A stretch of DNA of 64,000 nucleotides from Alphaproteobacteria bacterium (GTDB taxonomy: Bacteria; Pseudomonadota; Alphaproteobacteria; TMED109). Below, piece by piece: positions 11,097 through 31,521 of the stretch (positions are counted from its first letter, which is position 1; each line of letters starts with the position of its first letter). The notes under the pieces are model-generated. The model was given only the letters and a program-made list of their open reading frames with translations. It was not told the origin of the DNA and did not search any database. The position numbers and the translations under genes were made by a program. The stretch spans positions 62,001-126,000 of the forward strand of contig JAJDWH010000032.1 in NCBI GenBank assembly GCA_022825705.1. The letters run 5' to 3'.

Positions 11097-13436
11097 GTGG
11101 ACAAGCAAGGCGTAGCAAGAGAACCATTCGCGAAGCGGTTTGCCGAGCGGGTGCTGGCGTTCCGCTGGCTCGTGATTGCTGCCACGCTGGTGGCGGTCGC
11201 GGTCGCGTCAGCCGGCATCGCCCTGCTCGAATTCTCGGCCAACTACCGCATTTTCTTCGACGAAGACAATCCGCAGCTTCTGGCGCTGGAAGCTCTGGAG
11301 AATACGTACGGGAAGAACGAGAACATCGCCTTTCTGGTAGTTCCGGACGATGGCGACGCCACCTCGGAAAGCGCACTCGCGGCGGCTGCCTGGCTGACAG
11401 ATGCCGCCTGGCTGACGCCATACTCGAGACGCGTCGACTCGCTTGCCAACTTTCAATACACGACCGCCGAAGGCGACGACTTGTATGTGCGGGACCTCGT
11501 GGACCCGCAAGATCTGGACCGAGCAGAAACGCGCGCGCAAATCCGTGCAGTTGCGCTGTCCGACCCGCGTATCGCCGGCAGCATTCTGGCCCTGAACGGC
11601 GACGTGAGCGTCGTGAACGTCACGATCGAACTTCCGGAGAACGGTCTGCTGGAGGCTGTCGCCGAAGTCGCCGAGTTCGCCAGGTCGGTCGCCACGGAGG
11701 CAGAAGAGCGATTTCCCGGCATAGATCTGCGCGTCGTCGGCACGGTCATGATCAACCAGACGTTCGTGGAAGCTTCCATCAGCAGCCAGATGGTGTTCCT
11801 GCCTGCAAGCCTCCTGCTCATGGCGCTGGTCCTCGGTGTCCTCACGCGTGGCTGGCCGGGAGTGGTGGCGACAGGGGCGGTCATCGTCTTTTCGATTCTC
11901 TCTTCACTGGGTCTGGGCGTGTGGGCCGGTCTGCCCTTCTCTCCACCGATCTCGCCGGCACCGACCATCGTGCTGATGATCGTCGTGGCGAACTGTGTGC
12001 ACCTTCTGGTGGCGTTGCAGCGGCGACTGCGCGCCGGAGATTCCAGGCACGATGCCATCGTCGAATCCATCCGGCTCAACCTGCATCCGGTGTTTCTGGC
12101 GAGCCTCACGACGGCGCTTGGCTTCCTGAGCATGAATTTCTCCGAAGTGCCGCCCTACCGGCACCTCGGCAACTTCGTCGCGTTCGGCATCGTCGCCTCT
12201 TTCATTCTCTCCGTGACGTTCCTGCCGGCACTGCTATCGCTGCTTCCGATTCGTGCCGCGAAGGATCGCAGGCTCCCGGGACCCACGATGAACCGGCTGG
12301 CGGATTTCGTGGTGCGGTACAGAAAGGCGTTCATTTGGGGATGGCTGCTGATCGTGCCCGTGTTGATCCTGGCGATTCCGCGCAACGAACTGAATGACGT
12401 CCTGGTGCATTTCTTTGATGAGAGCGTGGAGTTTCGGCAGGACACGGATTTCATGGACGAGCGCCTCAGCGGCAACACCCTGCTCGAGTACTCGCTGGAA
12501 GCATCTTCCGAGGGGGGAGTCACCGACCCCCTGTTTCTCGCCGAGGTCTCTGACTTCGCCGCCTGGTACCGGGAGCAGCCTCCTGTGCGGCACGTGGCGA
12601 CCATCACCGATACCTTCCGGCAGCTCAACCAGAGCATGCACGGCGACGATCCTGCCGCCTACCGGATCCCGGAGAGCCAGGAGCTGGCCGCACAGTACCT
12701 GCTGCTGTACGAACTCTCGCTTCCGCAGGGCCTGGACCTGAACAATCAGATCGACCGGTCCCGATCAGCGACGCGCGTGACGATATCGGCCGAGACGCTC
12801 TATTCCCAAGACCTGCTGGATCTGAATGGCCGTGCGGAGGCATGGCTGGAAGCCAACGCGGAGCACGTAGCCGGCGTCAACAGCACCGGTCCCGCGGCGC
12901 TGTTCGCCTACATCGGGCAGCGCAACATACGCGCCATGCTGGTCGGGACCGTGGTCGTACTCCTTGCCATTTCCGCCATTCTCCTCTTTGCCTTGCGGTC
13001 GCTGCGGCTGGGCTTGATCAGCATCGTTCCCAACGTGATCCCCGCCGTATTGGGCTTCGGCGTCTGGGGGTTGACGGTTGGACAGGTGGGCCTCTCGCTG
13101 TCGGTTGTGGTGGCTATGACCGTGGGCATTGTGGTGGACGATACGGTGCACTTTCTTAGCAAGTACCGCCGGGCACGGCGTGAATACGGCCAGGGGCCTG
13201 AAGAAGCGGTGCGTTACGCCTTTGATACGGCCGGCCGGGCCCTGATGACGACGACGGTCGTGCTGGTGGCCGGTTTTCTGATATTTGTGTTTTCTCCGTT
13301 CGTTCCCACCGCCCAGGTCGGGGTCTTGACCGCGATGATCATTGGTTTTGCGCTCATCGCCGACCTGTCGCTGCTGCCGGCACTGTTGACGGTGGTGGAC
13401 CGGAATGCTTCGGAGAAGGGCACGTCACGGCCCTAA
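11097..13436 (+). CDS. RND-superfamily (MMPL-type) exporter
   Basis: A 779-aa integral membrane protein of the COG1033/MMPL branch of the RND superfamily: two repeats, each of a TM helix, a large periplasmic loop and five TM helices. The first loop contains FFDEDNPQLLALEALENTYG, typical of this branch. TM blocks include the run MVFLPASLLLMALVLGVL and, in the second half, SLSVVVAMTVGIVVDDTVHF with the conserved acidic residues. The start is GTG. Relatives are often paired with a LolA-like periplasmic protein; a matching partner is found at 25178, but 12 kb of RiPP genes lie between. Substrate unknown; hydrophobic or lipid-like cargo is usual for the branch. Confidence 0.9.
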   Translation: MDKQGVAREPFAKRFAERVLAFRWLVIAATLVAVAVASAGIALLEFSANYRIFFDEDNPQLLALEALENTYGKNENIAFLVVPDDGDATSESALAAAAWLTDAAWLTPYSRRVDSLANFQYTTAEGDDLYVRDLVDPQDLDRAETRAQIRAVALSDPRIAGSILALNGDVSVVNVTIELPENGLLEAVAEVAEFARSVATEAEERFPGIDLRVVGTVMINQTFVEASISSQMVFLPASLLLMALVLGVLTRGWPGVVATGAVIVFSILSSLGLGVWAGLPFSPPISPAPTIVLMIVVANCVHLLVALQRRLRAGDSRHDAIVESIRLNLHPVFLASLTTALGFLSMNFSEVPPYRHLGNFVAFGIVASFILSVTFLPALLSLLPIRAAKDRRLPGPTMNRLADFVVRYRKAFIWGWLLIVPVLILAIPRNELNDVLVHFFDESVEFRQDTDFMDERLSGNTLLEYSLEASSEGGVTDPLFLAEVSDFAAWYREQPPVRHVATITDTFRQLNQSMHGDDPAAYRIPESQELAAQYLLLYELSLPQGLDLNNQIDRSRSATRVTISAETLYSQDLLDLNGRAEAWLEANAEHVAGVNSTGPAALFAYIGQRNIRAMLVGTVVVLLAISAILLFALRSLRLGLISIVPNVIPAVLGFGVWGLTVGQVGLSLSVVVAMTVGIVVDDTVHFLSKYRRARREYGQGPEEAVRYAFDTAGRALMTTTVVLVAGFLIFVFSPFVPTAQVGVLTAMIIGFALIADLSLLPALLTVVDRNASEKGTSRP

Positions 13437-13556: not shown

Positions 13557-14138
13557 GTGATCTTTGTGAGGTGGCTACGCACGGCCGTGTTCAGTAATCC
13601 GTTTGACTCCTTTCACAATACTGTTGCCGAAGCAAAAGAAGAGCGCGAACGGCTCGACCGGCTGCTGACCGTCTCCACGCCGCGGGAGCGGCTTCTTGTT
13701 GCCATCATCGCCCTGTTCCTGCTGCTCCTTGCGGCATGGCTCTACTTCGGCAGCGTACCCCGCAGCCTGACGGTGGACGGCGTACTGGTCGGGGCTGGGC
13801 AGGAGTTGCCGGAGGGTAGCCGGTCGGTCCAGGCGCTTGTGTGGCTCCAAAGCGACCTCGCGCCGGCAATCAAACCCGGCATGCCGGCGGCAATCGAACT
13901 GGTCCATGCGGACGGAGAAGCGGGCATCCTCGACGGAGAGGTTGCGACCACTACCGCCGTCGCTGCGTTCGAGCAGCTCCCGGCGCTGCAGGTTGCGGCG
14001 CCGGTGTCCGTGCACCGCATCGAGATCACGCTCGATGAAGGCTCGGATCTTGCCCCCTCGGCAGATGTCGAATGCCGGATCGTCGTCGAACTCGGCAAAC
14101 AGTCTCCGATCGCGCTCTTCGGAATGAAACGGCCATAA
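13557..14138 (+). CDS. NHLP-system HlyD-like membrane fusion protein, shortened
   Basis: A 193-aa single-pass protein. Residues about 24-40 (KEERERLDRLLTVSTPRE) precede one TM helix, LLVAIIALFLLLLAAWLYFG, followed by VPRSLTVDGVLV. This start resembles the NHLM-type HlyD adaptors that serve NHLP bacteriocin exporters (family TIGR03794 from memory). The C-terminal part has a beta-barrel-like strand pattern with IKPGMPAAIEL. Usual relatives are about 400 aa with a lipoyl half and coiled-coil hairpin; here both appear to be missing. It lies two bases ahead of the peptidase-ABC gene, which supports the role. The start is uncertain: GTG 13557, 13566 and 13587 are all possible. Confidence 0.75.
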   Translation: MIFVRWLRTAVFSNPFDSFHNTVAEAKEERERLDRLLTVSTPRERLLVAIIALFLLLLAAWLYFGSVPRSLTVDGVLVGAGQELPEGSRSVQALVWLQSDLAPAIKPGMPAAIELVHADGEAGILDGEVATTTAVAAFEQLPALQVAAPVSVHRIEITLDEGSDLAPSADVECRIVVELGKQSPIALFGMKRP

Positions 14139-14139
14139 G

Positions 14140-16350
14140 ATGCTGCGGCGCGCCTCCAAAGGGGCAAGCGACAGGTCCGGCTCGGATGCTTTGAAACAGC
14201 GGATAATCACGCCGATCCAGCTGCAAATGCACGCGTCGGAATGTGGTGCCGCGTGCCTCGGCAGCGTTCTGGCCTACTTCGGGCGGCGGGTACCGCTTAC
14301 GGAATTGCGCGAGAAGTGCGAGGTGAGCCGAGACGGCAGCAGTGCCGCGAGCATCGTGCGCGCCGCCAGGCACTACGGTCTTGAATGCAATGGACTAAGT
14401 GTACGTGCCGAGCAACTGAGCAAGTTGCCGTTTCCCTTGATCCTGTTCTGGCAATTCAGTCATTTCGTCGTCCTCGAAGGACATGACGGCCGTTACTTTC
14501 ACCTCAACGATCCCTCCACGGGGCGGCGCCGGCTTTCCGCTGAGGAGTTCACCAAGGGCTACAGCGGAATCGCGTTGCGATTCAAGCGTGGTGCCGATTT
14601 CCGGCCCGGCGGCGAATGGCCCGGCCTGTTCAGGCAATTGGGCGCCTTGCTCACCGGATCACGGAGAGCATTAGCCGGGGTAGTTGCCTGCGCGCTCATG
14701 TTGACGTTGCTGGCACTCATCGTTCCCGCAGCCCTCGGCGCCTTTGTGGACGATGTTCTGGAAAAACAAGGTGCATGGGGCGGATTGGTGACGGCCCTGC
14801 TGGGCGGCGGGGCCCTGGTCTACGTCCTGTCCTTGCTGAAGCACCGATTCCTGAGGCGGCTGGCGGTACGAATTTCGGTGATCGGCTACAGCCGGGGTGT
14901 ATCGCGGCTGCTGCGGCTGCCCGTGGAGTTCTTTGACCACCGGCTGGTCGGCGATCTGACAGATCGGGTTTCGTCCATCGACCGAATCGCGAAGAATCTG
15001 ACGGACCAGTTTCTTGTACTCGTCGTCGACATCGCGATGAGCGCGGTGCTGCTCATCGCGATGCTGGTCTACGACTTTCTGCTGACGCTGATCGTGCTGC
15101 TGCTCGCCATCCTGCACGGGATGCTCGCCCACTTCCTCCACGCGCTTCGGGCTGTTCGAAGCCAGGCGATGAGGCGTGAGCAGGGATTGCTGATCGGCGT
15201 CGGCATGCAGATGTTGAGCCATGCGGACAACCTGCGCACGACGGGATCGGACGACCGGTTTTTTTCGCACTGGAGTGGTCAGCAGGCGCGGAAGTTGCAT
15301 GCGCGCCAGCTCTACTCGGAATTGGGTTCACTGAACGCTGCGCTGCCGGGCCTGATCGCCGCGCTTCGGAGCGCGGCAATCCTTGGGGTTGGTGCAAGTC
15401 TGGTGATCGCAGGAGAAATGACGCTGGGGACGCTGGTCGGGTTCTACATCCTGGCAGAAATGTTTCTGGCGCCGATCGGACGCTTTCTGGAGTTTGCCGA
15501 CAAACGCCAGGCACTCGAAACCGACTTGCAGCGACTGGAAGACATCTCGAAGACCGCTGAAGACCCGGTGTTCAGCCGCCGGGTTCCGGACTCGGAGACC
15601 ATCCCGACGTTCAACGGGCGGCTCCAACTTGCCGGCGGCCTGGAACTGCGAAACGTCACCTTCGGTTACAACAAGAGCCGGCCGCCTCTGATCAAGGACT
15701 TCAACCTCGTGATCAAGCCAGGGCAGCGGGTCGCCGTGGTCGGGCCCAGCGGCTCCGGAAAGTCGACCTTGGCGCGTCTGGTTTCTGGTATCTGCCGGCC
15801 CTGGTCGGGCGAAATCCTGTTTGATGGCCATCTGCGCGATGAGATACCCGAGGAAGTGCTGCGGCGGTCCATTTCCATGGTCGATCAGGATGTCGTGCTG
15901 TTTTCCGCGTCCCTCCGCGACAACATCACCTTGTGGAACCCGGCTGTTCCGGATGAAGTCATCATCGCCGCGACGCGGGATGCCGCCATCCACGACGAAA
16001 TCCTGCTCAGGTCGCAGGGGTATTCGACCCCTGTCGAGGAAGGCGGGGTGAATTTCAGCGGCGGCCAGCGGCAGCGACTGGAAATCGCCCGCGCCTTGGT
16101 CGGGAATCCGACCGTGCTCATTCTGGACGAGGCGACCAGTGCCCTCGACGCGGCGACCGAGGAAGCTGTCGATGATGCCTTGCGGTGTCGCGGCGTTACC
16201 TGCTTGATCGTGGCGCACCGGCTGAGCACCGTACGCGACTGCGACGAGATCATCGTGCTCGACAAGGGCGTCGAAGTGCAGCGCGGCACGCACGACGAGT
16301 TGATCGCCGACCGGGATGGCACGTACTACAAGCTGGTCAAGTCGGGCTGA
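14140..16350 (+). CDS. NHLP-type peptidase-containing ABC exporter (C39 peptidase-TM-ATPase)
   Basis: A 736-aa transporter that should cleave the leader and export the peptide. The N-terminal C39 peptidase has the catalytic Cys in MHASECGAACLGSVLAYFG, the His in FSHFVVLEGH and the Asp in LNDPSTG. A six-helix membrane domain occupies about residues 165-445. The ATPase is complete: Walker A GPSGSGKST, signature NFSGGQRQRLEIARAL, Walker B VLILDEATSALD and the switch His in IVAHRLSTV. It corresponds to the NHLM ABC1 type (permease/ATPase/peptidase). The ATG follows the HlyD stop by one base, and its stop overlaps the ATG of the second ABC gene (TGATG), indicating translational coupling. Confidence 0.94.
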   Translation: MLRRASKGASDRSGSDALKQRIITPIQLQMHASECGAACLGSVLAYFGRRVPLTELREKCEVSRDGSSAASIVRAARHYGLECNGLSVRAEQLSKLPFPLILFWQFSHFVVLEGHDGRYFHLNDPSTGRRRLSAEEFTKGYSGIALRFKRGADFRPGGEWPGLFRQLGALLTGSRRALAGVVACALMLTLLALIVPAALGAFVDDVLEKQGAWGGLVTALLGGGALVYVLSLLKHRFLRRLAVRISVIGYSRGVSRLLRLPVEFFDHRLVGDLTDRVSSIDRIAKNLTDQFLVLVVDIAMSAVLLIAMLVYDFLLTLIVLLLAILHGMLAHFLHALRAVRSQAMRREQGLLIGVGMQMLSHADNLRTTGSDDRFFSHWSGQQARKLHARQLYSELGSLNAALPGLIAALRSAAILGVGASLVIAGEMTLGTLVGFYILAEMFLAPIGRFLEFADKRQALETDLQRLEDISKTAEDPVFSRRVPDSETIPTFNGRLQLAGGLELRNVTFGYNKSRPPLIKDFNLVIKPGQRVAVVGPSGSGKSTLARLVSGICRPWSGEILFDGHLRDEIPEEVLRRSISMVDQDVVLFSASLRDNITLWNPAVPDEVIIAATRDAAIHDEILLRSQGYSTPVEEGGVNFSGGQRQRLEIARALVGNPTVLILDEATSALDAATEEAVDDALRCRGVTCLIVAHRLSTVRDCDEIIVLDKGVEVQRGTHDELIADRDGTYYKLVKSG

Positions 16351-19295
16351 TGCGCGACGCGAGGCCCGAGCACACATCGATCGCCGAGCTCGCTGCTCGC
16401 TCCGGCACGTCCGTGCCTTGCGCCGGCAACCTGCCGGTGCGACTCGACGATCCGGATAGTGTCTGGTTCATCGATCAGGGCGCCGTCAACCTGTTCCTGG
16501 TCGAATTCAAGGACGGAGTGGAGCGGGCGGCACCGCAGCATCTGCTTCGCTGCGAAACGGGCAGATTGCTGCCGGGTGTTGCTCCGGACGAAGAAGACGC
16601 GAACGAGAAGGACACGTCGCTCAGCCTCATTGCCAAGGGATCGCCAGGTACCCTTCTGAAACGCCTGCCGGCGTCCTTGCTGTCGGAGGTGCATCCAGCA
16701 GAACTGGCCAAACAGACTGATACCTGGCTCACCGCCGTAACCGACACGCTTTCGCGCTTTGCCAGCCGCCTTCCGCGTCCGACCGCGCTGGCTGAACCTG
16801 GTCTGACCCAGACCCTGGCACCGTGCACGCTGTCCGTGCGTCGCGGCGTGGTGTGGGTTTCCCAACCGTCCCGTGGTGTCAGCCTGTACATGGATATGGT
16901 CGACCAGGCTGAACTTGCCGACGCCGGGGGCCCCCATGAGGCAGTGATACCGTTGACGCGGACGAGCTGGCTCACCTTGCTCGACGAGGCGACACTCGCG
17001 GGCAAATCCACTGAAACGCTGGCACAGCAAGGGGCGCTGCTGCCGGCGCTTGCCTCATTTCATACGGTCGCCTTCAACCTGGAACGCCTGAACCGCCGGC
17101 TGGCCGTGGTCGATGACGCGACCCGGGCGGGCGCGCGGACGAGGTGCGGGCGCACGGCCGAGGCGGCGGCCCGACGGCGGCTTTTCAACATCTACGACCG
17201 GCCGATCGACCGGGATGCAGATGTCGCGGACACGGCGCTGGCAGATGCCCTGAAGATCATCGGCCGCCATCAAGGAATCGATTTTCGGATCCCGGTACGC
17301 TCCACGCTGTCCGATTCTCCGGTGGGTCTCGTTGATGTCCTCGATGCGTCGGGCGTACGGGCCCGGCGCGTGCGCTTGGAACCCGGGGGCAACTGGTGGC
17401 GCGGCGATAGCAATGCGCTGCTGGCATTCCGTGCGAACGACGGTCAGCCCGTTGCGCTGCTCCCCGGAATGTTCGGGCGCTACCGGGAGTTCGACCCAGT
17501 GAGCAAGCGCAGTATCCGTGTGACGGCGGATCGGGCCGGCGCGCTCAAGAAGGAAGCCTGGATGTTCTATCGGCCGCTCCCGGCCCGGAACGTGAAACTA
17601 GGAGACCTGCTGAGAATCGCCCTGCATGGATCGGCCGGGGATCTGGCTCGGCTGGTGATCGCCGGGCTGCCCGGCGGGCTGATCAAACTGCTGCCGGCGC
17701 TCGCACTCGGGTTTGTGGCGAATCACATTGTGGCGGGCGGAAGCGCCGGAGTGCTCTACGCCGTGGCCGCGACGCTGGCAGGCTTCGGCCTGTTCGGCGC
17801 ACTGCTGCACCTTCTACAAAGCACAGCAATGATGCGGCTGGAGGGACGCTCGGCGTCGCGGGTCGAGGCGGCCTTCTGGGACCGCCTCATGCGACTTCCG
17901 TCGGGCATTCTGCGCCGTCATCCAGCTGGCGATCTGGCCATGTCGGGAATGACATTCCAAAGTCTTCGCGACGGGTTGCAAGGGGCCGTCGCCGACAGCC
18001 TGCTGTCGGTCGTTTTTCTGCTGCCGGTGTTCGGTGTCATCTTTTTCTACGATGCCACGTTGGGAGTCATCACCCTTGCATTCAGCCTGGGCTCGCTGCT
18101 GGTGACCGCAGCCCTCGGGCTGCGCCAGATTTCACCGTACGGGCGCATGATCGCCGCAGCCCGCGGCGTGGCGGGCCGGCTGTTCCAGATCGTGGGCGGT
18201 ATCGTCAAGCTGCGCGTGGAAAGCGCGGAAGGATCGGCCTACGCCATCTGGGCGCGGGACTATCGTGAACAGAAGCGCGCCGAACTGGAACTGGGCGCGC
18301 TCGAAGCGCATTCGCGTGCATTTGCAGCCGCGCTCCCCTTCCTCGCCGGCGGAGTACTGCTGTTCGCGGTGGTCATCGTGAGCGACCGGAACGTTCCGGT
18401 CGGCGATTTCCTCGTTGTCTACACCGTCTTCATCGCATTCCAGTCGGCGATCGCCCGGCTCGGCGAGTCGTTCGGCACTGTTGCTGCCATGCTGCCGGCG
18501 TTCAAACAGATGCGCCCGTTGCTCGCCGCGGTTCCGGAAACCGACGTCGAGGGAGAGCCGGTCAACCGATTGGGCGGCGAAATTCTGTTCGACCGCATTT
18601 CGTTCCGATACGAGCCTGACGGCCCGTTGATTCTCGACGATGTGACAATTCACGCCAGGCCCGGCGAATTCATCGCGATCGCCGGCGAGTCCGGCGCCGG
18701 CAAGAGCACCCTGTTCCGGCTCGCGCTTGGAATCGACAGGCCCACCGCTGGCGCGGTGTATTACGACGGGCGTGATCTGCGGCACCTGAACCTGAAACAG
18801 GTGCGCCGGAAAATTGGTGCCGTGCCGCAGTCGGTCGGACTGCATCCACAGGATCTTTGGGACAACCTGGTCGGTCACCACGAAGAAGTCGGGACCAAGG
18901 AAGTATGGGCGGCGGTCCGAATTGCCGGAATCGAAGACGAGATCAAGGGCATGCCCATGGGCATGATGACCATGGTCGGTACCAGCGGGGCGGTGTTGTC
19001 GGGTGGGGAAAGTCAGCGCGTCACGATCGCGCGCTCGGTGATCGGCAGCCCGCGCATCATGCTGTTTGACGAGGCAACCAACTGGCTTGACAACGAAAGT
19101 CAGGCCGAGGTGATGCGCAACCTGACCGCTCTGACTTCGACCCGGGTGGTTATCGCCCATCGCCTGTCCACGTTGGAGCAGGCGGACCGCATTTACGTCT
19201 TGCAGGCCGGAAAAGTTGTCCAGAGCGGCTCCTTCAGGGGACTCATGGAGACCGACGGGGTCTTCAGGGAACTGGTCAAGCGGCAGATCGCTTGA
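16350..19295 (+). CDS. NHLP-type second ABC exporter (permease/ATPase with large N-terminal domain)
   Basis: A 981-aa ABC protein of the NHLM ABC2 type. The first 400 or so residues are soluble and start with a cyclic-nucleotide-binding-like stretch, VWFIDQGAVNLFLVEF; then come the membrane domain (LARLVIAGLPGGLIKLLPAL onwards) and an ATPase with Walker A GESGAGKST, signature VLSGGESQRVTIARSV and Walker B IMLFDEATNWLD. It has no C39 peptidase, so it probably partners the preceding exporter. The frame is open upstream to 16185, inside the previous gene, but ATG 16350 overlaps that gene's stop and is preferred. Role by family: secretion of NHLP-leader peptides; the job of the N-terminal domain is not established. 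Confidence 0.92.
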   Translation: MRDARPEHTSIAELAARSGTSVPCAGNLPVRLDDPDSVWFIDQGAVNLFLVEFKDGVERAAPQHLLRCETGRLLPGVAPDEEDANEKDTSLSLIAKGSPGTLLKRLPASLLSEVHPAELAKQTDTWLTAVTDTLSRFASRLPRPTALAEPGLTQTLAPCTLSVRRGVVWVSQPSRGVSLYMDMVDQAELADAGGPHEAVIPLTRTSWLTLLDEATLAGKSTETLAQQGALLPALASFHTVAFNLERLNRRLAVVDDATRAGARTRCGRTAEAAARRRLFNIYDRPIDRDADVADTALADALKIIGRHQGIDFRIPVRSTLSDSPVGLVDVLDASGVRARRVRLEPGGNWWRGDSNALLAFRANDGQPVALLPGMFGRYREFDPVSKRSIRVTADRAGALKKEAWMFYRPLPARNVKLGDLLRIALHGSAGDLARLVIAGLPGGLIKLLPALALGFVANHIVAGGSAGVLYAVAATLAGFGLFGALLHLLQSTAMMRLEGRSASRVEAAFWDRLMRLPSGILRRHPAGDLAMSGMTFQSLRDGLQGAVADSLLSVVFLLPVFGVIFFYDATLGVITLAFSLGSLLVTAALGLRQISPYGRMIAAARGVAGRLFQIVGGIVKLRVESAEGSAYAIWARDYREQKRAELELGALEAHSRAFAAALPFLAGGVLLFAVVIVSDRNVPVGDFLVVYTVFIAFQSAIARLGESFGTVAAMLPAFKQMRPLLAAVPETDVEGEPVNRLGGEILFDRISFRYEPDGPLILDDVTIHARPGEFIAIAGESGAGKSTLFRLALGIDRPTAGAVYYDGRDLRHLNLKQVRRKIGAVPQSVGLHPQDLWDNLVGHHEEVGTKEVWAAVRIAGIEDEIKGMPMGMMTMVGTSGAVLSGGESQRVTIARSVIGSPRIMLFDEATNWLDNESQAEVMRNLTALTSTRVVIAHRLSTLEQADRIYVLQAGKVVQSGSFRGLMETDGVFRELVKRQIA

Positions 19296-19385
19296 TCCGA
19301 TTCCGCAGACTGGCTGGGAGGGCCGTATCAGACTGGTGACCGCGCAATCGACACTCTCCCGGGTCCGGGACCGTGGGGTGCAGCA

Positions 19386-20687
19386 ATGAAGAATCCCGTT
19401 GACGCGGCAAAATTCCTTGTCTCGAGAGCCGGCGAAGACAGTGACTTTCGCGAACGTCTTCTGGCGAAACCGAAAGCAACCATCGAGCAGGAATTCGGCG
19501 TAACGCTGGCCGAAGATCATGCGATTCATGTGCACCAAGAAACCGACGCCACGACGCACGTGGTGCTGCCGCCGCGTAGCAAGCTCAGCGAGGCCGAACG
19601 GAAGGAGGCGTTGACTGGAGCTGCGTCACTCGAGTTTCTCAAGCGGACGATGCACGACCCTGCACCTCCGTTTCGCCCACCTGCCCTGAAACCAACGCCT
19701 GCCCAAGCGGGCACGCTATCGCCCGAGGCCCTGGCGACAGCCGGCAGAGAAAGCATCCGCCGCGGCCTCGTGTTCCTGGAATCGACCATCGACGATCGCG
19801 GGGCCTGGCACTGCATCCGGTTCAACGTAGCCGACCCTGACATTCCGCGGCACTTCGAAAGGCCTCCCTTTATTTCCGCACTCTGTGTACTCGCCCTGGA
19901 AAGTTCGGATGAAGCGCGGGCCAAGACCATCTGCACCAGCACAAAAGCCTATCTTGTCAATACCATTGAACATCCTGGGTTCTGGCGATACTACCGGCAT
20001 CTTCCCCAGGACCTTGACAGCACCACGCTCTGCTCGCTTGTCATCGGCACTCATCCGTGGATGGTGCTGGGGAGGAACGTCCCGGGGATGTTGGCGAATC
20101 GTGACCGGCAAGGCCGTTTCATGACGTGGGTGCTCGCGGAGGATCAGCCCGATGTCGTGTCGACCTTCCGTATCGAAGCGGACCCGGTCGTCAATGCGAA
20201 TGTCATTGCCTACCTCGGTGACCACCCCGAAACCGAAGATGCCCAGCGGTGGTTGGAAGCCCTGGTTTCCGAGGACGCGCTTGAGGGTTCATCCAAATGG
20301 TATCCGGACACAGTTGCGATCCACTACGCGATCACCCGCGCCATGGTTCGCGCATATCCCGTCCTTGATCAATTGCGCCCAATCCTCGCGGGCCAGATTC
20401 GGAGCCTGCGTGATGACAGGGGCGAATTTGACAACATCCTGCAGACCGCCCAGGCGGTGTCGGCGCTCTACAACATCGGAGAACTTGAGGCCGTTGACGC
20501 GAGCCGCCAGATGGAACGGCTACTGAACTCGCAGCAAGAGGACGGCAGCTGGCCGGAACTTCTTGCTTTTGGCGACCAGTCGCTGCAATGGGGTGTGGTG
20601 GGGCAGATCGGACATGGTTCCGAAGCCGTGACCACCGCGTTTTGCATCGAAGCTCTGGAGCGCCTCGTCCAAGTCCTGAGAGGCTGA
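19386..20687 (+). CDS. NHLP leader domain fused to a terpenoid-cyclase-like alpha/alpha-toroid domain
   Basis: A 433-aa two-part protein. Residues 1-75 are an NHLP (nitrile hydratase alpha-like) leader: DFRERLLAKPKATIEQEFGV then HVHQETDATTHVVLPP, matching the precursor at 24502 in about half of positions by eye. A Pro-rich linker (about 90-115) leads to a helical-repeat domain like squalene cyclases and protein prenyltransferases, with RRGLVFLESTIDDRGAWHC, a QW-type motif QQEDGSWPEL and the final helix EAVTTAFCIEALERL. The DxDD acid of squalene-hopene cyclases is not obvious. No signal or TM segment. It sits 90 bp after the ABC genes with GGGGTG ahead of the ATG. Function unknown: it might modify the precursor, or be a decoy or chaperone using the same recognition surface. 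Confidence 0.82.
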   Translation: MKNPVDAAKFLVSRAGEDSDFRERLLAKPKATIEQEFGVTLAEDHAIHVHQETDATTHVVLPPRSKLSEAERKEALTGAASLEFLKRTMHDPAPPFRPPALKPTPAQAGTLSPEALATAGRESIRRGLVFLESTIDDRGAWHCIRFNVADPDIPRHFERPPFISALCVLALESSDEARAKTICTSTKAYLVNTIEHPGFWRYYRHLPQDLDSTTLCSLVIGTHPWMVLGRNVPGMLANRDRQGRFMTWVLAEDQPDVVSTFRIEADPVVNANVIAYLGDHPETEDAQRWLEALVSEDALEGSSKWYPDTVAIHYAITRAMVRAYPVLDQLRPILAGQIRSLRDDRGEFDNILQTAQAVSALYNIGELEAVDASRQMERLLNSQQEDGSWPELLAFGDQSLQWGVVGQIGHGSEAVTTAFCIEALERLVQVLRG

Positions 20688-20763
20688 CAGGCAGACGGGT
20701 TACTGCCCCCGGTGGTACCATGACGTTCCGCGTCAGGGACTGGTACGCCGTCAGAGGAGCTGT

Positions 20764-20841
20764 ATGCCGCAACTCGCATCCGCACGTGGAGCCTTGGGCT
20801 GGGTCGAGGCTGACATCGTGCCGGGTTCAGCGGTTGACTAG
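20764..20841 (+). CDS. possible 25-aa small ORF ahead of the YcaO gene
   Basis: ATG 20764 is preceded by GAGGAG four bases away and encodes MPQLASARGALGWVEADIVP plus five residues, ending in TAG 42 bp before the YcaO start. It has no NHLP leader and no Cys, so it is not a second azoline precursor. The ribosome binding site is good for this locus, but the reading frame is very short and may be chance or a translational coupling device. Confidence 0.25.
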   Translation: MPQLASARGALGWVEADIVPGSAVD

Positions 20842-20882
20842 TTCGCGACGCGGGCCCTCTCCGGGAGCTGCGCGTTCATTGC

Positions 20883-23243
20883 GTGCGCCTGAAGGTGCCG
20901 GCTAACCCTGCGCAGAAGTCCCGGGTGCAGGCGCAGACCGACCGGAATTCCCGGCGCGGGATACTGATCAGGGCGACTCCCGAGGATCAGGGCCTCGTCA
21001 CACTGCCTGCGCTCACCCCACACCTCCGGTTTCACGACGTCAACGAACAGCAGATGCTGCTAGTTTCCGAGTCATTCAATACGTTGCTGCACGGCAAGCT
21101 GTACGGAGATCTGCTGCCGTTGCTCGACGGACAGCATTCACACGACGAGATCGCCGCGGCTCTCGAGGGCCGCCATGCCTCGGCCGACGTTCTCGCGGCC
21201 ATCGTCTCGCTCTCGGGCAGGGGCTATGTCGTCTCCGCCGACCACAGCATGGAGCAGTCCAGGGCGGCCTACTGGTCGTCGGTTGGCGCGACGCCACGCT
21301 GGGTCGAACAACGGTTGGCAGAATCGCGCATTTCGGTGGTCGGCGACCGGGGCCGGCTGGCCGGACACCTGCACGACTCTGGCGCCAGGGTGGGAACTGA
21401 CGACCCTGAGCTGACCGTTGTGGTCTGTGAAGATTATCTCGAGGAAGAGCTTGCCGACGTCAATCAGCGTCAGCTTGAGCTCGGCGCTTCCTGGATGCTG
21501 GCGAGACCGCGCGGCATCCAGCCGCTGCTCGGCCCCGTCTTTCGCTCGGATGCAGCGGGAGCTTGCTGGGCCTGCCTCAGCTACCGCCTGCGCAGCCACC
21601 AGGAGGTGCACAGTTTTCTCCGTAACTTTGCGGGCGAGGGGGCTGCCTTCAAGCCGTTCGCGGCGGAGCCGGCGGTGCTCGAAGCGCTCTACCGGCTGAT
21701 CGCGGCTGAGATTGTCAAATGGGTGGTGCTCGCTGAGGCCGCCCCCATACACGAACACGCGATCGCAGTAGACGTCGGTACGTTGGCCAGCTCTCGGCAT
21801 CGGGTCGTACGACGGCCACAGTGTCAGGCATGCGGCGACCGAGCGCTGCATCGCCCGGATCGACCGCCGGTTCCGCTCTCTCTGAAGGCGAGTCCCAAAG
21901 CGCATCGCAACAGCGGCGGTGCGCGCACCGTGGCACCGGAAGTCACCTTGGCCAAGTACCGCCACTTGGTGAGTCCGATCAGTGGTGTCGTGACGTGGCT
22001 GTCACCCACCACCGATGAGACTGATTCCTGGCTGCACGTCCACTGGGCCGGCAGCAATCTCGGGATGAGAACCCGAAGCTTGAGCTCTCTCAGGCGAAGT
22101 TTGCGGAGCAAGAGTGCGGGGAAGGGCAGCACAAGAGAGCAATCCGAGGTCAGCGCGCTCTGCGAGGCGATCGAGCGCTATTCAGGTGCCCTTCACAGTG
22201 ACGAGATCCGTGTGCGCAAGCCATTCGTCGAGTTCGCCGGGAGTGAAGAGGCAATCCATCCCAACGATGTGCAGCTGTTCAGTGACGATCAGCTGAATAA
22301 CGCCAAGAGCATCAACGCAAAGGGACACCCGTACAACATCGTCCCGCCGCGGCTCGCACCCGACACCGAAATCGACTGGACTCCAGTGTGGTCGCTTACG
22401 CGGGGGCGGCACCGGTATCTGCCGACGTCAATGCTCTACAGCATGCCCGCCGAACAGCGCGGTCCGGCCGATCTGATTGCCGATTCCAACGGCTGTGCCG
22501 CCGGAAACACGCTGGAAGAGGCCATCCTGCAAGGATTCTACGAACTGGTCGAGCGCGATGCCTTTGCCATCTGGTGGTACAACCGGTTACACGTGCCCGC
22601 GGTTGACCTTGCCAGCTTCGACGACGGCTACCTGGCCTCTGCCGTTGATTACTACGGCCGCCGAGAACGGGAACTGTGGATGCTCGACGTCACCTCCGAT
22701 ATCGGCATTCCCACCTTTGTCGCGCTTTCGCGCAGCCCGGACGCTCAGACCGAGGACATCATTTATGGTGCCGGCGCCCATGCTGACCCGCGGTTGGCGG
22801 CACTGCGGGCAGTCTGCGAATTAAATCAGTGTCTTAGTTGGCTGCCGCAGCCCGGAAGTAGTGACGGTCGGCCAATGATTGATGATCCGCTGGCGCTTTG
22901 GTGGTGGAAGACCGCTCGACTCGCCGATTGCTCCTGGCTAGCGCCATCGCCGGACGAGCCGCCCCGCAGGGCGTCACACTACCCTGCGATCGAATCGACG
23001 GACACACGGGACGACGTGGAATACTGTCGCGCACTCGCCGAAGCCAGGGGCATGGACTTCCTGGTGCTGGACCAGACTCGGCCCGACGTCGGCATGCCGG
23101 TAGCGCGGGTCATCGTGCCGGGCATGCGTCACTTTTGGGCAAGATTCGCGCCGGGGCGGCTGTACGACGTGCCGGTCAGGATGGGGCATCGTAAGTTCCC
23201 CGTCACTGAAGCAGACGTCAATCCGGCACCTGTTATCGCGTGA
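20883..23243 (+). CDS. fused TOMM leader-binding/E1-like protein and YcaO azoline-forming cyclodehydratase
   Basis: A 786-aa enzyme expected to turn Cys (or Ser/Thr) residues of the precursor into azolines using ATP. The N-terminal part (about 38-350) is the leader-peptide-binding, E1-like partner domain: LTPHLRFHDV, YGDLLPLLDGQHSHDEIAAAL, and two CxxC pairs (C228/C231 and C314/C317) forming the usual zinc tetrad. The YcaO part (about 355-786) keeps the ATP-binding acids in SALCEAIERYSG, ILQGFYELVERDAF and AALRAVCELNQ, and ends NPAPVIA, a relaxed form of the Pro-rich C-terminus of TOMM YcaO proteins. GTG start 195 bp after the toroid gene; the next gene starts 9 bp downstream. No SagB-type dehydrogenase is seen nearby. 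Confidence 0.93.
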   Translation: MRLKVPANPAQKSRVQAQTDRNSRRGILIRATPEDQGLVTLPALTPHLRFHDVNEQQMLLVSESFNTLLHGKLYGDLLPLLDGQHSHDEIAAALEGRHASADVLAAIVSLSGRGYVVSADHSMEQSRAAYWSSVGATPRWVEQRLAESRISVVGDRGRLAGHLHDSGARVGTDDPELTVVVCEDYLEEELADVNQRQLELGASWMLARPRGIQPLLGPVFRSDAAGACWACLSYRLRSHQEVHSFLRNFAGEGAAFKPFAAEPAVLEALYRLIAAEIVKWVVLAEAAPIHEHAIAVDVGTLASSRHRVVRRPQCQACGDRALHRPDRPPVPLSLKASPKAHRNSGGARTVAPEVTLAKYRHLVSPISGVVTWLSPTTDETDSWLHVHWAGSNLGMRTRSLSSLRRSLRSKSAGKGSTREQSEVSALCEAIERYSGALHSDEIRVRKPFVEFAGSEEAIHPNDVQLFSDDQLNNAKSINAKGHPYNIVPPRLAPDTEIDWTPVWSLTRGRHRYLPTSMLYSMPAEQRGPADLIADSNGCAAGNTLEEAILQGFYELVERDAFAIWWYNRLHVPAVDLASFDDGYLASAVDYYGRRERELWMLDVTSDIGIPTFVALSRSPDAQTEDIIYGAGAHADPRLAALRAVCELNQCLSWLPQPGSSDGRPMIDDPLALWWWKTARLADCSWLAPSPDEPPRRASHYPAIESTDTRDDVEYCRALAEARGMDFLVLDQTRPDVGMPVARVIVPGMRHFWARFAPGRLYDVPVRMGHRKFPVTEADVNPAPVIA

Positions 23244-23252
23244 CGAGACGGC

Positions 23253-24371
23253 ATGGATATTGACGAAGCAGTCGCACTTACCCAGGACCGCCTCGCCGAA
23301 GAGGGTGGCAGCATGGGTGACTTGCTCGGTCACTTTCGAAATGGAGTTTCGCCGACGCTTGTCGGTGACCCGGAATGGGAGCGCATACTTGAATGCGCCG
23401 GGAATCTTCCGATCACCATGGGCGCGCTTCCGTTCGGCTTTGAACTGCCGCTGCACACACCGAGGCCGGAGGCGGATTTCGGCGTTTCCTTGGCGAGCGG
23501 CACCAGAACGGCTGAGTTTTTCCTCGAGCGGGCGCGGACCGACAGGACCGACGAGACCGCGACCGCGATTGCGCGGTTGTTCAGGCAAATCGAGACAGAG
23601 AACTCGCCTTTGCGTGAAATTGTGGGCCGAAAGTTGATGCTGGAATATGACATCGGCTCGGCCGGGGAGGGGGAGGGCGAGTATCCGGGCATGTTCCTGC
23701 GGCCCGGAGCGCGACCGATCATCGGTGCCCGTGGCCAGGCGGACGACGTCGGCATGGTGGTGGACGCCCTTGTGTCCTGTGCAGGCTGGGAGCGGAACGA
23801 TTCCGAACGCGAGAATGTCGAGCGCGTTTACTTGGCGCAGCCACCGGGAACGCGCATGGATTCGTTCGGGGTATTTCCGTCTCGTTCACGAGCCATCCGC
23901 TTGGCCATCATGGGCTTCGAAGCGCAGCAGGACCTCTGTTCGTATCTCGCAGGCACGGGTTGGCCGGGCCAGATCCCGGCCGTCGAATCCGTGATGTCCC
24001 GATTCGCGCGGCGCGCGAACGTCGCAAGGGCAGGGGTGAACGTTGACGTTCAGGAAGACGGTCTCGGTGCAACGCTTGGCCTGACGTTCATGGTCAAGCA
24101 GCGGTACACAAGAGACGCACGTTATTGGTTGGACGGCCCGGGTGATTGGGATCCGTTTCTGGCGGCATTAGACCACGAGGATCTGGTCGTTCCGGAGAAG
24201 GTCGCGGCGCTTGCGGGCTGGGTCTCGAGACCGAAGCCGCTTTTCGCGAAGTCTGGGCGTTATTGGCTCCTGCGCGGCATCCACCACGTCAAGCTGGTCA
24301 TATCCGGAAACGGGCTACGAGAAGCCAAAGCCTACGTGTTCATGGTGCTGTCCGGAGCGGCCACCTCCTGA
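23253..24371 (+). CDS. unrecognised RiPP-cluster protein, 372 aa
   Basis: Not assigned to a family by me. It starts nine bases after the YcaO stop, so it is almost certainly in the same operon. The sequence is soluble-looking, with no signal peptide or TM helix. Notable stretches are ITMGALPFGFELPLHTPRPE, FRQIETENSPLREIVGRKLM, LEYDIGSAGEGEGEYPGMFL, SRSRAIRLAIMGF, and a C-terminal IHHVKLVISGNGLREAKAYV. It has several evenly spaced aromatic/charged strands and a conserved-looking late His-His-Lys. An ABBA-type prenyltransferase fold was considered because of the strand pattern, but no signature is secure. A tailoring enzyme or substrate-handling protein are both open. Confidence 0.7.
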   Translation: MDIDEAVALTQDRLAEEGGSMGDLLGHFRNGVSPTLVGDPEWERILECAGNLPITMGALPFGFELPLHTPRPEADFGVSLASGTRTAEFFLERARTDRTDETATAIARLFRQIETENSPLREIVGRKLMLEYDIGSAGEGEGEYPGMFLRPGARPIIGARGQADDVGMVVDALVSCAGWERNDSERENVERVYLAQPPGTRMDSFGVFPSRSRAIRLAIMGFEAQQDLCSYLAGTGWPGQIPAVESVMSRFARRANVARAGVNVDVQEDGLGATLGLTFMVKQRYTRDARYWLDGPGDWDPFLAALDHEDLVVPEKVAALAGWVSRPKPLFAKSGRYWLLRGIHHVKLVISGNGLREAKAYVFMVLSGAATS

Positions 24372-24385
24372 CAGCGGCGTTCAGC

Positions 24386-24412
24386 GGGCGTGCCCAACCA
24401 TCAGGCGCGCCC
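24386..24412. repeat. inverted repeat between convergent RiPP genes (possible terminator)
   Basis: Arms GGGCGTGCC (24386-24394) and GGCGCGCCC (24404-24412) pair over 9 bp with one wobble around a 9-nt loop. It lies between the last rightward gene and the leftward precursor gene. No T-run follows on either strand, so intrinsic termination is uncertain. Confidence 0.35.
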
Positions 24413-24501
24413 GCCCGGGGAAGGAAAGTGAGTCGAAGCCACGCCGAAACGTGGTTTCGATCAACCCGGAACCTTGACCGCCCGCCCGCCGGTTTCGGAG
24501 A

Positions 24502-24753
24502 TTACCAGCAGCAACAAAGACCAGCCGAAATAGCTTCGAGTTGCTCCTCGGTGATGTTGGGATCTGGCGGTAGCGCGACATGCACGGTCTGCATGTCACT
24601 TTCATGCACTTTGATATTCATGGACTCAGGTATTGTGATACCTAATTCCTCGCTAATGGTACTCTTGGGATTCGCCAGAAGCTGTTGTCTGAATTCAGGG
24701 TCCAATGAGGACTTCTCAACAATTTGCTTCAGCATGTCATCGCCGCTACGCAT
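24502..24753 (-). CDS. NHLP-leader RiPP precursor with LCCCW core
   Basis: An 83-aa precursor. The leader has the nitrile-hydratase-alpha-like pattern DPEFRQQLLANPKSTISEEL, then IKVHESDMQTVHVALPPDPN and ITEEQLEAISAG. The predicted cleavage follows Ala77-Gly78, a double-Gly-type site for the C39 exporter at 14140, leaving Leu79-Cys80-Cys81-Cys82-Trp83. Three adjacent Cys are natural substrates for the YcaO cyclodehydratase at 20883. ATG 24753 is chosen over GTG 24756 because AGGAG sits 6 nt before the ATG. It is transcribed convergently with the operon, from its own promoter. Local composition upstream is distinctly more AT-rich than the rest. No other Cys-containing precursor was found. Confidence 0.87.
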   Translation of the reverse strand: MRSGDDMLKQIVEKSSLDPEFRQQLLANPKSTISEELGITIPESMNIKVHESDMQTVHVALPPDPNITEEQLEAISAGLCCCW

Positions 24754-25177: not shown

Positions 25178-25996
25178 ATGGGGTTCCGATGTCTCCGCGG
25201 CGCCTGGGCCGTCGCCTTGGTGCTGGCCTTGGCGGGCGTCTGCCTGCCGCATTCGCACGCCCACGCCCAGGAAGAGACACCGGAGGAAAAAGGGCTTCGG
25301 ATCGCGAGCGAAGCGAGCGCCCGGAACGAAGGTTTCGGGGATTTCTCTGCCGGATTGACGATGGTGCTCCGCGACCGGCACGGTCGCGAGAGCGTGCGCC
25401 AGATGCGGTTCAAGGTTCCGGAGGTGCTGACGGATGGCGACAAGAGCCTGTTCGTGTTCGATCAGCCGCGAGACGTACAGGGAACCGCGCTCCTGACCCA
25501 TGCTCACATCAACACGCAAGATGACCAATGGCTGTATCTCCCCGCCCTGAAAAGGGTGAAGCGCATCAGTGCAGCGAAGCGCTCAGGGTCATTCATGGGA
25601 AGTGAGTTTTCGTACGAGGACATGAGCCCTCCGGAGGTGGAGGAGTACACCTACAAGTATCTTCGCGACGAACCCTGCGGCGAACTGACCTGTACGGTGA
25701 CCGAACAGGTTCCCCTGGATGAGAAATCCGGCTACAGCCGCAAGGTCGTGTGGCAAGATGCGGGCGAACTTCGAACCTGGAAGATGGAGCTCTACGACCG
25801 GAAGGGCTCGCATCTGAAGACGCTCACGCTCGCCAACTATCAGCAATATCTGGATCAGTACTGGCGGGCAGAAGAGCAGACGATGGTGAATCACCTGACC
25901 GGCGCGAGCACGGTCCTTCACTGGACGGATTTTCGGTTCCGCACGAATCTTGATGACAGCGAATTCACCCAGACCGCACTTCGACGCGTGCGCTGA
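25178..25996 (+). CDS. LolA-like outer-membrane lipoprotein-sorting-type periplasmic protein
   Basis: A 272-aa exported protein. MGFRCLRGAWAVALVLALAG is a Sec signal peptide ending near AHAQ. The mature part matches the LolA-like family that accompanies MMPL/RND exporters (PF17131 type): ASEASARNEGFGDFSAGLTM, LFVFDQPRDVQGTALLTH, DDQWLYLPALKRVKRISA, GSFMGSEFSYEDMSP and a late TLANYQQYLDQYWRAEE. These proteins are thought to shuttle lipids or hydrophobic cargo across the periplasm. ATG 25178 is preferred over upstream in-frame ATGs because it places the signal peptide at the N-terminus. The expected RND partner is not adjacent but at 11097, on the other side of the RiPP genes. Confidence 0.87.
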   Translation: MGFRCLRGAWAVALVLALAGVCLPHSHAHAQEETPEEKGLRIASEASARNEGFGDFSAGLTMVLRDRHGRESVRQMRFKVPEVLTDGDKSLFVFDQPRDVQGTALLTHAHINTQDDQWLYLPALKRVKRISAAKRSGSFMGSEFSYEDMSPPEVEEYTYKYLRDEPCGELTCTVTEQVPLDEKSGYSRKVVWQDAGELRTWKMELYDRKGSHLKTLTLANYQQYLDQYWRAEEQTMVNHLTGASTVLHWTDFRFRTNLDDSEFTQTALRRVR

Positions 25997-27455: not shown

Positions 27456-27623
27456 CCGCGCGTTGGGACGTTTCGGCGGAGCCTCTCTTCGATCGGCGAT
27501 TAGGGCACCCGCCGATTTCCGCTCGCGATCGCGGCGGTGGTCGCCGGGCGCTTGCGGTGGCGTGGTCGGTGGTCGACGATTGCCGGTTCCGAATGCCCGT
27601 CGGCACTGCACCGGGAAGCGCGG

Positions 27624-28319
27624 ATGACGACCAGCGAGTCGGACAGATCAAGCCAGCCGCCGTATCGGTATCCCGACTACGTGTCGACACGCTTGCGGGC
27701 GCCCACCCAGCCGCCTATTCGGATACCCGGTTTCTCGTCAAGGCACGCGGGTCCGGCCCTCGACGATTCGGCGCTGTCCCCGCTGGACGCCGACCTCACC
27801 AGGAACGGGCGCCGCAACGGCGAACCCGTCGGGGAACGGATCATCGTCACCGGCCGGATCATTGATGAAATCGGACGGCCGGTGCCAGGCGCCCTGCTCG
27901 AAATCTGGCAGGCGAATGCGGCCGGCAGGTACATCCAGCCAACCGATCAGCACGATGCCCCGCTCGACCCGAACTTTCTCGGTACCGGGCGCTGTCGATC
28001 CGATGCCACCGGTCATTACGGCTTTCGCACCATCAAACCCGGTGCATACCCGTGGCAGAACCACCCCAACGCCTGGCGGCCCAACCACATCCATCTGTCG
28101 CTGTTTGGGCCTGACTTCGGTTCGCGGCTGGTGACGCAAATGTACTTCCAGGGGGATCCGCTGCTGCCGCTGGATCCCATCTTCAATAGCGTGCCGGAGG
28201 ATGCCCGCGACCTGCTGGTGGCCCAATTCGAACTGGACCGCACCGAGCCCGGCGTCGCGCTTGCCTTCCGGTTCGACATTGTCCTGCGCGGCCCCAGGGC
28301 GACGCCGCGCGAGGCTTAG
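27624..28319 (+). CDS. pcaH: protocatechuate 3,4-dioxygenase beta subunit
   Basis: A 231-aa beta subunit of the non-haem Fe(III) intradiol dioxygenase that cleaves protocatechuate to 3-carboxymuconate. The N-terminal YPDYVSTRLRAPTQPP is typical, as is IIVTGRIIDEIGRPVPGALL. Iron ligands are visible: the Tyr in RCRSDATGHYGFRTIKPGAY, a second Tyr nearby, and two His in WRPNHIHLSLFG. ATG 27624 has GGGAAG about 9 nt upstream; the open frame reaches further but without family sequence. pcaG follows after six bases. It opens the four-gene 4-hydroxybenzoate catabolic run. Confidence 0.95.
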   Translation: MTTSESDRSSQPPYRYPDYVSTRLRAPTQPPIRIPGFSSRHAGPALDDSALSPLDADLTRNGRRNGEPVGERIIVTGRIIDEIGRPVPGALLEIWQANAAGRYIQPTDQHDAPLDPNFLGTGRCRSDATGHYGFRTIKPGAYPWQNHPNAWRPNHIHLSLFGPDFGSRLVTQMYFQGDPLLPLDPIFNSVPEDARDLLVAQFELDRTEPGVALAFRFDIVLRGPRATPREA

Positions 28320-28325
28320 GGCCAA

Positions 28326-31517: not shown

Positions 31518-31521
31518 ACTG

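Follow-up and report, generated by a model that had tools for sequence, protein, structure and literature searches.

The srp biosynthetic gene cluster (BGC), of a sponge-derived RiPP proteusin, was reportedly described by Nguyen et al. in 2021. According to the accessible portions of the srp literature, the precursor SrpE has the core LCCCW, the YcaO enzyme SrpC forms three thiazolines and SrpI brominates the C-terminal Trp, and it is through these two enzymes only that the product has so far been described (PMC10858898, PMC10286304); SrpI is active in vitro without other srp genes, conversion by SrpC in E. coli is partial (PMC10858898, PMC10286304), and the cluster is reported as highly distributed across marine sponge microbiomes (PMC10858898, PMC10286304, PMC9426513). 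Prenylated RiPPs are known from other systems. As far as the available extracts go, NctPC combines an alpha-beta-beta-alpha (ABBA) prenyltransferase with an MstE-like cyclase and acts on Trp of a ribosomal peptide, the P domain of ChrPC having another, trans-IDS-like fold (PMC13290415), and the mpp BGC of Moorena producens has a working leader-dependent ABBA prenyltransferase, MppC (PMC11791876, PMC12715784).

We compared with these systems a locus in a window of 64,000 nucleotides (the whole stretch of DNA that was analysed), where the following genes are found:

11097..13436, plus strand: MMPL/RND lipid-type transporter (PF03176, E 6.9e-30)
13557..14138, plus strand: short HlyD-like periplasmic adaptor, 193 aa (TIGR03794, E 2.7e-5, residues 31-81 only)
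14140..16350, plus strand: C39 peptidase/ABC exporter (TIGR03796, 829.7 bits, cut-off 853.3; PF03412, E 3.5e-34)
16350..19295, plus strand: second NHLM-type ABC transporter, ABC2 (TIGR03797, 679.7 bits, cut-off 709.4)
19386..20687, plus strand: NHLP leader domain (about 1-80) and predicted class II terpene cyclase domain (about 113-433), from profiles, AF2 model and structure matches
20883..23243, plus strand: fused RRE/ThiF-like leader-binding and YcaO cyclodehydratase, SrpC counterpart (TIGR03882, 136.9 bits; TIGR03604, 277.7 bits; PF02624, 323.9 bits)
23253..24371, plus strand: ABBA-fold prenyltransferase candidate, 372 aa, from AF2 model, Foldseek and VIA-align lists and family alignments
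24502..24753, minus strand: NHLP precursor, SrpE counterpart, 83 aa (TIGR03793, 70.7 bits, cut-off 50.9)
25178..25996, plus strand: LolA-like periplasmic lipid/lipoprotein carrier (PF17131, E 3.8e-60), its start inferred from a Met preceding a signal-peptide-like stretch
26184..27455, plus strand: flavin-dependent tryptophan halogenase, SrpI counterpart (PF04820, E 6.1e-42)
34882..37326, plus strand: AlkB/desaturase-type membrane oxygenase with a GlnE/GlnD-like C-terminal part (PF00487, E 3.7e-23; PF03710, E 1.5e-8)

By its sequence the locus is a member of the srp family, a copy of a known cluster. The sequence-only reading had set its limits at 13557..24753, and every gene that it named is present where it had placed it; the locus reaches past those limits, the MMPL, LolA-like, halogenase and AlkB-like genes also belonging to it, and the flavin halogenase at 26184-27455 had been overlooked. 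The same reading held the locus to be of no characterised class, an idea that we rejected because its core equals that of SrpE and because its enzymes are of the SrpC and SrpI types. As it had proposed, there is an NHLP precursor with a five-residue core and the expected product is small and Cys-rich: the leader, ending ...NITEEQLEAISAG, shows the nitrile-hydratase-like proteusin feature (TIGR03793 over cut-off), and the C-terminal end reads AISAG-LCCCW. The YcaO protein, the sole YcaO found in the genome assembly, exceeds the cut-offs of both TIGR03882 and TIGR03604 and, by this family-model content, corresponds to SrpC. The earlier description of a leader-binding YcaO fusion stands, and the two CxxC pairs of the supposed Zn tetrad (residues 228 and 314) are indeed present, but they sit in the TIGR03882 part (203-370) and not in the YcaO domain (412-749). 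The halogenase matches tryptophan halogenases in the PDB, and its K83, Y101 and Y109 correspond, at a constant offset of one, to the published positions Lys84, Tyr102 and Tyr110 of SrpI, the leader-dependent Trp brominase. An NxTEEQL motif at 66-72 of the NHLP leader and a spread over many bacterial taxa are further likenesses to the srp BGC as far as it is described in the accessible literature, and no difference was found in core genes. Profile scans of the genes at window positions 8074 to 37326 found no FMN azoline dehydrogenase, which fits thiazolines rather than thiazoles.

The relatives with an srp-type locus are metagenome-assembled genomes from many phyla, which we take to be sponge bins, and an LCCCW precursor is present in 20 of 21 further genomes of many phyla. 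A search of relatives, suggested beforehand as a check on gene order, bears the grouping out: the gene set recurs, as far as contig ends permit, in most of the 23 loci having the 372-aa protein, which makes the assembly more than chance. The exceptions are L026 and L030, where the YcaO gene lacks an adjoining cyclase, and the divergent L035, where YcaO is absent at the locus; that the whole L035 genome has none is a weakened claim, since its other srp pieces lie on short contigs and the 2.3 Mb genome is probably incomplete. The halogenase is absent or weakly matched in 4 of the 21 genomes, including the chromosome-level G030 with LCCCW. A rule that the halogenase and a C-terminal Trp in the core always go together was likewise weakened: G023 (LCCCF) has none, but neither do G030, G037 and G041, and G038 has only a 28% match, although G030, G038 and G041 all have LCCCW. 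A look at viral contigs led nowhere (0 of 4 stretches).

The transport genes had been called NHLM-type. The NHLM families are indeed the nearest, but HlyD, ABC1 and ABC2 all fall under the NCBIfam equivalog cut-offs, HlyD most weakly (TIGR03794, 23.3 bits against 156.2); with these families nearest, they would work like NHLM export, below the equivalog level. HlyD, the C39-ABC1, ABC2 and NHLP are common to the window and to the NHLM export system in the accessible part of Haft et al. 2010 (PMC2887384), from which the window locus differs in these scores and in its additional MMPL and LolA genes. The short HlyD was considered as damage, a reading rejected on the grounds that srp relatives align along its full length, without a long insert (conservation across srp loci, 54-96%). 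The C39 exporter has C35 within SECGAAC and a downstream H/D region, presumably catalytic. An ABC2 start at 16185 was rejected, since the TGATG overlap with the preceding stop puts the start at 16350. The MMPL protein scores 123.7 bits, far under cut-off, against the hopanoid transporter model HpnN (TIGR03480); its gene adjoins HlyD in L023, L034, L044, L045 and L046, and ABC2 in L017 and L021.

The srp chemistry described in the accessible literature leaves two genes unused, one with the look of a prenyltransferase and the other with that of a terpene cyclase. The 372-aa gene, which begins 9 nt past the YcaO stop, had been listed as an unknown protein; no Pfam or NCBIfam family covers it, as that description implies, but its predicted prenyltransferase fold had been missed. 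The AF2 model (pLDDT 88.1, pTM 0.88) is predicted by Foldseek and VIA-align to be an alpha-beta-beta-alpha barrel, and its structural neighbours are mainly indole prenyltransferases (rmsd 4.5 A, identity about 11%). For the structure alignment the window protein was joined by those from 20 loci; the other three of the 23, L026, L033 and L034, were left out as broken or partial. ABBA aromatic prenyltransferases shield the diphosphate with basic and Tyr residues, and in a family alignment of 12 members, L112 being aligned along its C-terminal part only, K316, H345, K347, K359 and Y361 are invariant and R211 and R216 are present in 11. The family profile has no match up to E 10 among PDB sequences, and up to E 10 Pfam and NCBIfam give single-member, chance-level matches with no prenyltransferase among them. 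With no sequence match to a known prenyltransferase, a point that we count against the main reading, the candidate assignment draws on fold and context.

The neighbouring NHLP-toroid fusion at 19386-20687 had been recognised beforehand, and both parts are detected, each under its cut-off (TIGR03793, E 5.1e-11, 42.3 bits against 50.9; SQHop_cyclase_C, a weak 24.6 bits against 26.1); what was overlooked is the class II terpene cyclase fold, of which the toroid looks like a candidate. Its model has the predicted alpha-barrel fold at a mediocre pLDDT of 69.9, with drimenol synthase and drimenyl diphosphate synthases among the top structural matches. Class II terpene cyclases carry a DxDD acid motif. 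The window protein has DLDS at 209-212, both Asp being invariant in 18 of 18 sequences (the window and 17 loci, with an intact L034 copy left out), and the second Asp is presumably the acid; homologues have DLDDT (L107) or EVDST (L112) in its place. Fold, D-x-D and QW-type motifs are common to MstE, drimenol synthase and the toroid, whereas the N-terminal NHLP domain and the DLDS motif set the window protein apart. The model confidence, DLDS instead of DxDD and squalene cyclase models under cut-off also count against the main reading.

One precedent for such a predicted pair is NctPC, where, in the accessible text, an ABBA-type prenyltransferase likewise goes with an MstE-like cyclase; there the two form one fused protein, whereas the window encodes them separately, on either side of the YcaO gene, with an NHLP domain on the cyclase and with the YcaO enzyme and a brominase in the cluster too. 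The mpp BGC, so far as described in the available excerpts, offers an SrpI-like halogenase, MppC, the terpene synthase MppD and an oxygenase, but is a lanthipeptide (LanM) cluster with a Nif11-like leader in place of the YcaO thiazolines and NHLP leader of srp (PMC11791876, PMC12715784).

Based on these genes we consider an srp pathway extended by a prenyltransferase and a terpene cyclase the likely explanation of the locus. The YcaO enzyme would form three thiazolines from the Cys residues of the SrpE-type core and the SrpI-type halogenase would brominate the C-terminal Trp with the NHLP leader still attached, as partly accessible work describes for srp. The ABBA-fold enzyme probably attaches an isoprenoid to the core, with the Trp indole as the most likely site, and the toroid would protonate and cyclise the core-bound isoprenoid, its own NHLP domain being probably a docking module. 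The AlkB-like protein (59% to a gene located within srp clusters) may hydroxylate the terpenoid part. Cleavage of the leader after AG would fall to the C39-ABC exporter, and a small amphiphilic product would leave via C39-ABC, HlyD, ABC2 and the lipid-type MMPL/LolA pair. The product may thus be part peptide and part terpene, probably a pentapeptide bearing three thiazolines, a bromine and a cyclised prenyl group. The fullest version, a ribosomal meroterpenoid joining that pentapeptide to a polycyclic terpenoid, made by an unrecognised prenyltransferase family and a cyclase that docks by its own leader copy, we advance tentatively, at a little short of even chances. No prenyltransferase or terpene cyclase reading of srp was found in the open-licence literature, which excludes the primary srp paper.

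The terpene chemistry might be absent altogether: LCCCW with its three thiazolines and the bromine would then be the finished product, and the ABBA-like protein and the toroid would be without catalytic activity, as chaperones or docking parts that present the leader to SrpC, SrpI or the exporter. The accessible srp work mentions cyclodehydration and bromination only and has SrpI working without other srp genes (PMC10858898, PMC10286304), neither "prenyl" nor "terpen" occurs in the main text of PMC10858898, and an NHLP domain on the cyclase is what one would expect of a docking part. A scaffold, however, needs neither the invariant Lys/His/Tyr positions nor the DLDS motif, and on other NHLP contigs homologues of the two proteins occur together although the leader fusion is missing there; the partial conversion by SrpC in E. 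coli (PMC10858898, PMC10286304) and the working leader-dependent enzyme beside an SrpI-like halogenase in mpp (PMC11791876, PMC12715784), both taken from partly accessible sources, also speak against it, and we judge it quite improbable. Alternatively, the order could be of a drimenyl type, in which the NHLP-cyclase acts first, on free farnesyl or geranylgeranyl diphosphate, and the bicyclic diphosphate so formed is what the ABBA enzyme transfers to the peptide; the top structural matches include drimenol and drimenyl diphosphate synthases, which act on free diphosphates, and we regard this order as unlikely. That the window locus is a non-functional srp relic has next to nothing to recommend it: the AlkB-like gene is parted from the cluster by protocatechuate-type catabolic genes, but all core genes are open, their proteins are 73-100% identical to those of G022 and G024-G027 (HlyD 55-96%), and the precursor is unchanged along 77 aa in G000, G022, G024 and G027.

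The prenyl acceptor might also be Cys, a terminus or Phe, with bromination and prenylation on separate residues. Homologues of the 372-aa protein stand beside the cores LCCCF and (GG)GSAGCM, both without Trp, and Cys is found in each of the five core types that the srp-like set comprises (LCCCW, LCCCF, WCCCGQ/N, SAGCM, LPWCSSGGCW). Against this, every core, taken as the residues after GG/AG, on the six further contigs that carry a homologue of the prenyltransferase candidate (a partial one in two cases) has Trp or Tyr, five of the six have no Cys, and the structural neighbours of the model are mainly indole enzymes; a non-Trp acceptor seems to us rather doubtful. The cores without Trp leave the acceptor unfixed, which we hold against the main reading, as we do exceptions in gene content: besides the 4 of 21 genomes with an absent or weakly matched halogenase, the G023 cluster retains the prenyltransferase while cyclase and halogenase were not found in its genome; G041 has LCCCW, YcaO and a prenyltransferase gene in broken frame, again with no cyclase or halogenase found; and L110, one of seven further NHLP or cyclase contigs taken, is without a prenyltransferase homologue.

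If the prenyltransferase and cyclase reading is true, it names a prenyltransferase family lacking a database model, puts terpene cyclases at work in several NHLP clusters and offers an example on which to study tailoring enzymes that bring their own leader domain, a new way of organising RiPP assembly; a cyclised prenyl group would shift the expected masses, and the compound could be searched for in existing sponge MS data. For the brominated tris-thiazoline LCCCW bearing a C5, C10, C15 or C20 isoprenoid, the calculated [M+H]+ values (79Br) are 719.150, 787.213, 855.275 and 923.338, with 15.995 to be added where a hydroxyl group is present. As a minor observation, a protein at G000:C24 taken at one point for a tandem NHLP protein was rejected as such: it carries a CTLCSCY motif, which we take to be the nitrile hydratase alpha chain signature, and looks like a genuine chain of that kind.

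Judged by sequence against the published descriptions of SrpE and SrpI rather than their deposited records, the locus is srp, the sponge-derived proteusin cluster. The precursor ends in ...NITEEQLEAISAG-LCCCW and carries NITEEQL at residues 66-72, numbering from MRSG; SrpE, in the portions consulted of PMC10858898 and PMC10286304, has the same core and NLTEEQL at residues 66-72. Those portions also describe formation of three thiazolines by SrpC and bromination of the terminal Trp at indole-6 by SrpI, only with the leader attached. The window's halogenase has K83, Y101 and Y109 for SrpI K84, Y102 and Y110, a shift of one. Core, leader motif and halogenase residues thus overturn the suggestion of the sequence-only reading that this is not a characterised class. 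Flavin halogenases usually carry W-x-W-x-I-P at a motif that reads GWIFVIPL here, as in the halogenase of L037, a related locus.

All genes named in that reading are present in the window. Family scans back the exporters, the leader-binding/YcaO fusion (the one YcaO found in this assembly), the precursor and the NHLP-toroid fusion (a predicted terpene cyclase, hereafter the cyclase), whose NHLP part scores E 5.1e-11, under the curated cut-off; they return nothing for the 372-aa protein. The HlyD is there, albeit short and weakly matched, and the supposed Zn tetrad of the YcaO protein exists as two CxxC pairs, but in its ThiF-like part. The precursor stands with corrected strand and the second ABC exporter with corrected start; the halogenase and the membrane oxygenase are listed with them:

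24753 down to 24502, minus strand: NHLP precursor (family scan)
from 16350: second ABC exporter (ABC2)
26184-27455: halogenase (Trp_halogenase by family scan), outside the limits first drawn for the locus
34882-37326: AlkB/desaturase-type membrane oxygenase (family scan)

The comparison with related genomes proposed in the sequence-only reading finds the order HlyD-ABC1-ABC2-cyclase-YcaO-372-aa-precursor repeatedly on contigs of sufficient length. With the 372-aa protein as query, genome contigs yielded 23 loci; the MAGs that hold them, which we take to be of sponge origin, are labelled Rhodospirillales, Pseudomonadales, Gemmatimonadetes, Vicinamibacteria, Nitrospinota, Binatia, Nitrospirales and others. 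Identity to the query is 68-93% in 22 of the 23 (three of these broken or partial), with L035 as the divergent exception at 27%. Transporters lie on the opposite side in L017 and L021; L030 has a YcaO without adjoining cyclase, with one cyclase elsewhere in its genome, and L026 lacks the cyclase altogether. Across the 21 genomes behind L014-L032, L035 and L036 (G029 being apparently the same genome as G022), an LCCCW precursor was found in 20 (a contig-end fragment in G035; none in G037), 24 of 30 returned loci having been read for cores. The full-length NHLP-cyclase occurs in 20 (not G041), and the halogenase, at at least 75% identity, in 17, two of them in pieces; none was found in G030, G037 or G041, and the best match in G038 is 28%. 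Since G030, a chromosome-level record, has LCCCW without the halogenase, bromination is not shared by all. In the window's order 28 genomes were covered, many of them small and incomplete; only the seven from the window's genus were found to carry the 372-aa protein (YcaO 7/7, halogenase 6/7, full-length cyclase 6/7). One of the seven, G023, has YcaO and core LCCCF, with neither halogenase nor full-length cyclase found; its L039, with L113, is a paralogous srp-like cluster.

Beyond the thiazolines and leader-dependent bromination established for srp (PMC10858898 and PMC10286304), we infer that the 372-aa protein, a putative prenyltransferase, prenylates the core, after which the NHLP-fused cyclase would cyclise the isoprenoid; hydroxylation is possible, the C39 domain would remove the leader after AG, and export would come last. 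The cyclase's NHLP domain shares about 40% identity with the leader of the precursor, but it closes with TGAASLEF where the precursor has AG and its core, and is therefore read as a docking domain. Alternatively, it may be cleaved at G-A or G-G, a site that varies across the cyclase alignment. The cyclase motif is DLDS, not DxDD, and the absence of the cyclase itself from G023 and G041 counts against the prenyl-terpene reading. A prenyl acceptor other than Trp seems unlikely, the more so because five of six further cores have no Cys; on the other side, LCCCF and SAGCM cores are also accompanied by the putative prenyltransferase.

Each piece has a known relative. Ribosomal peptides bearing cyclised isoprenoids have been described: NctPC is an alpha-beta-beta-alpha prenyltransferase joined to an MstE-like cyclase and acts on Trp (PMC13290415). 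The mpp cluster combines a halogenase resembling SrpI with a prenyltransferase, a terpene synthase and an oxygenase (PMC11791876). In the literature covered, we found no statement that srp encodes both prenyltransferase and terpene cyclase, nor any mention of a terpene cyclase with an NHLP domain of its own; Hubrich 2024 and the primary srp paper, outside this scope, may state so. The main text of PMC10858898, as consulted, contains neither "prenyl" nor "terpen".

The membrane oxygenase combines an AlkB/desaturase signature with a GlnE-like tail. In 10 of the 23 loci its gene sits between those for the cyclase and the YcaO protein; in five others it lies past the prenyltransferase candidate. 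Between halogenase and AlkB-like gene, 27537-34459 holds a dioxygenase pair, lyase, FAD monooxygenase, hydrolase and RraA-like genes, which look like protocatechuate-type catabolism. A lipid-like product would fit the MMPL, weakly similar to hopanoid transporters in family scans, and the LolA-like proteins.

Related NHLP clusters vary. In L037 (1682-7830) and L038 (G026:C6, G025:C98) the canonical srp halogenase is immediately followed by a second precursor, core WCCCGQ or WCCCGN, which is accompanied by an MMPL of its own and a second prenyltransferase homologue; L037 has two methyltransferases between them. L040 (G024:C54) has core (GG)GSAGCM and a 42% prenyltransferase homologue; the sole YcaO match in G024 sits in its srp cluster. 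Leaderless terpene cyclases in L106, L107 and L112 (G028:C36, G028:C80, G031:C196) share contigs with precursors of cores AVPTGDW, GGCWSYG and IAPTDDSY, and adjoin a prenyltransferase homologue in L106 and L112. At L110 (G028:C94) a precursor ending SGGGFTDGSSWSSW stands beside a distant tryptophan halogenase (25-31%), with no prenyltransferase homologue in the contig part examined. In L035 (1437-11095) a precursor ending LPWCSSGGCW precedes a small protein whose GRDP-like match is sub-threshold and the 27% homologue of the 372-aa protein, together with NHLM-type transporters; 6 kb upstream there is a gene of the nitroreductase family. Farther afield, a 1218-aa "tetratricopeptide repeat protein" of Nostoc sp. 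C052 plasmid pC052_D (L122, 5937-9593) contains PhyH, UbiA prenyltransferase and class II cyclase-like regions. The 372-aa family also has a homologue at the N terminus of a "2OG-Fe(II) oxygenase" encoded within a LanM/Nif11 lanthipeptide cluster of Pseudanabaena galeata plasmid pPg_03 (L123, 8001-9794).
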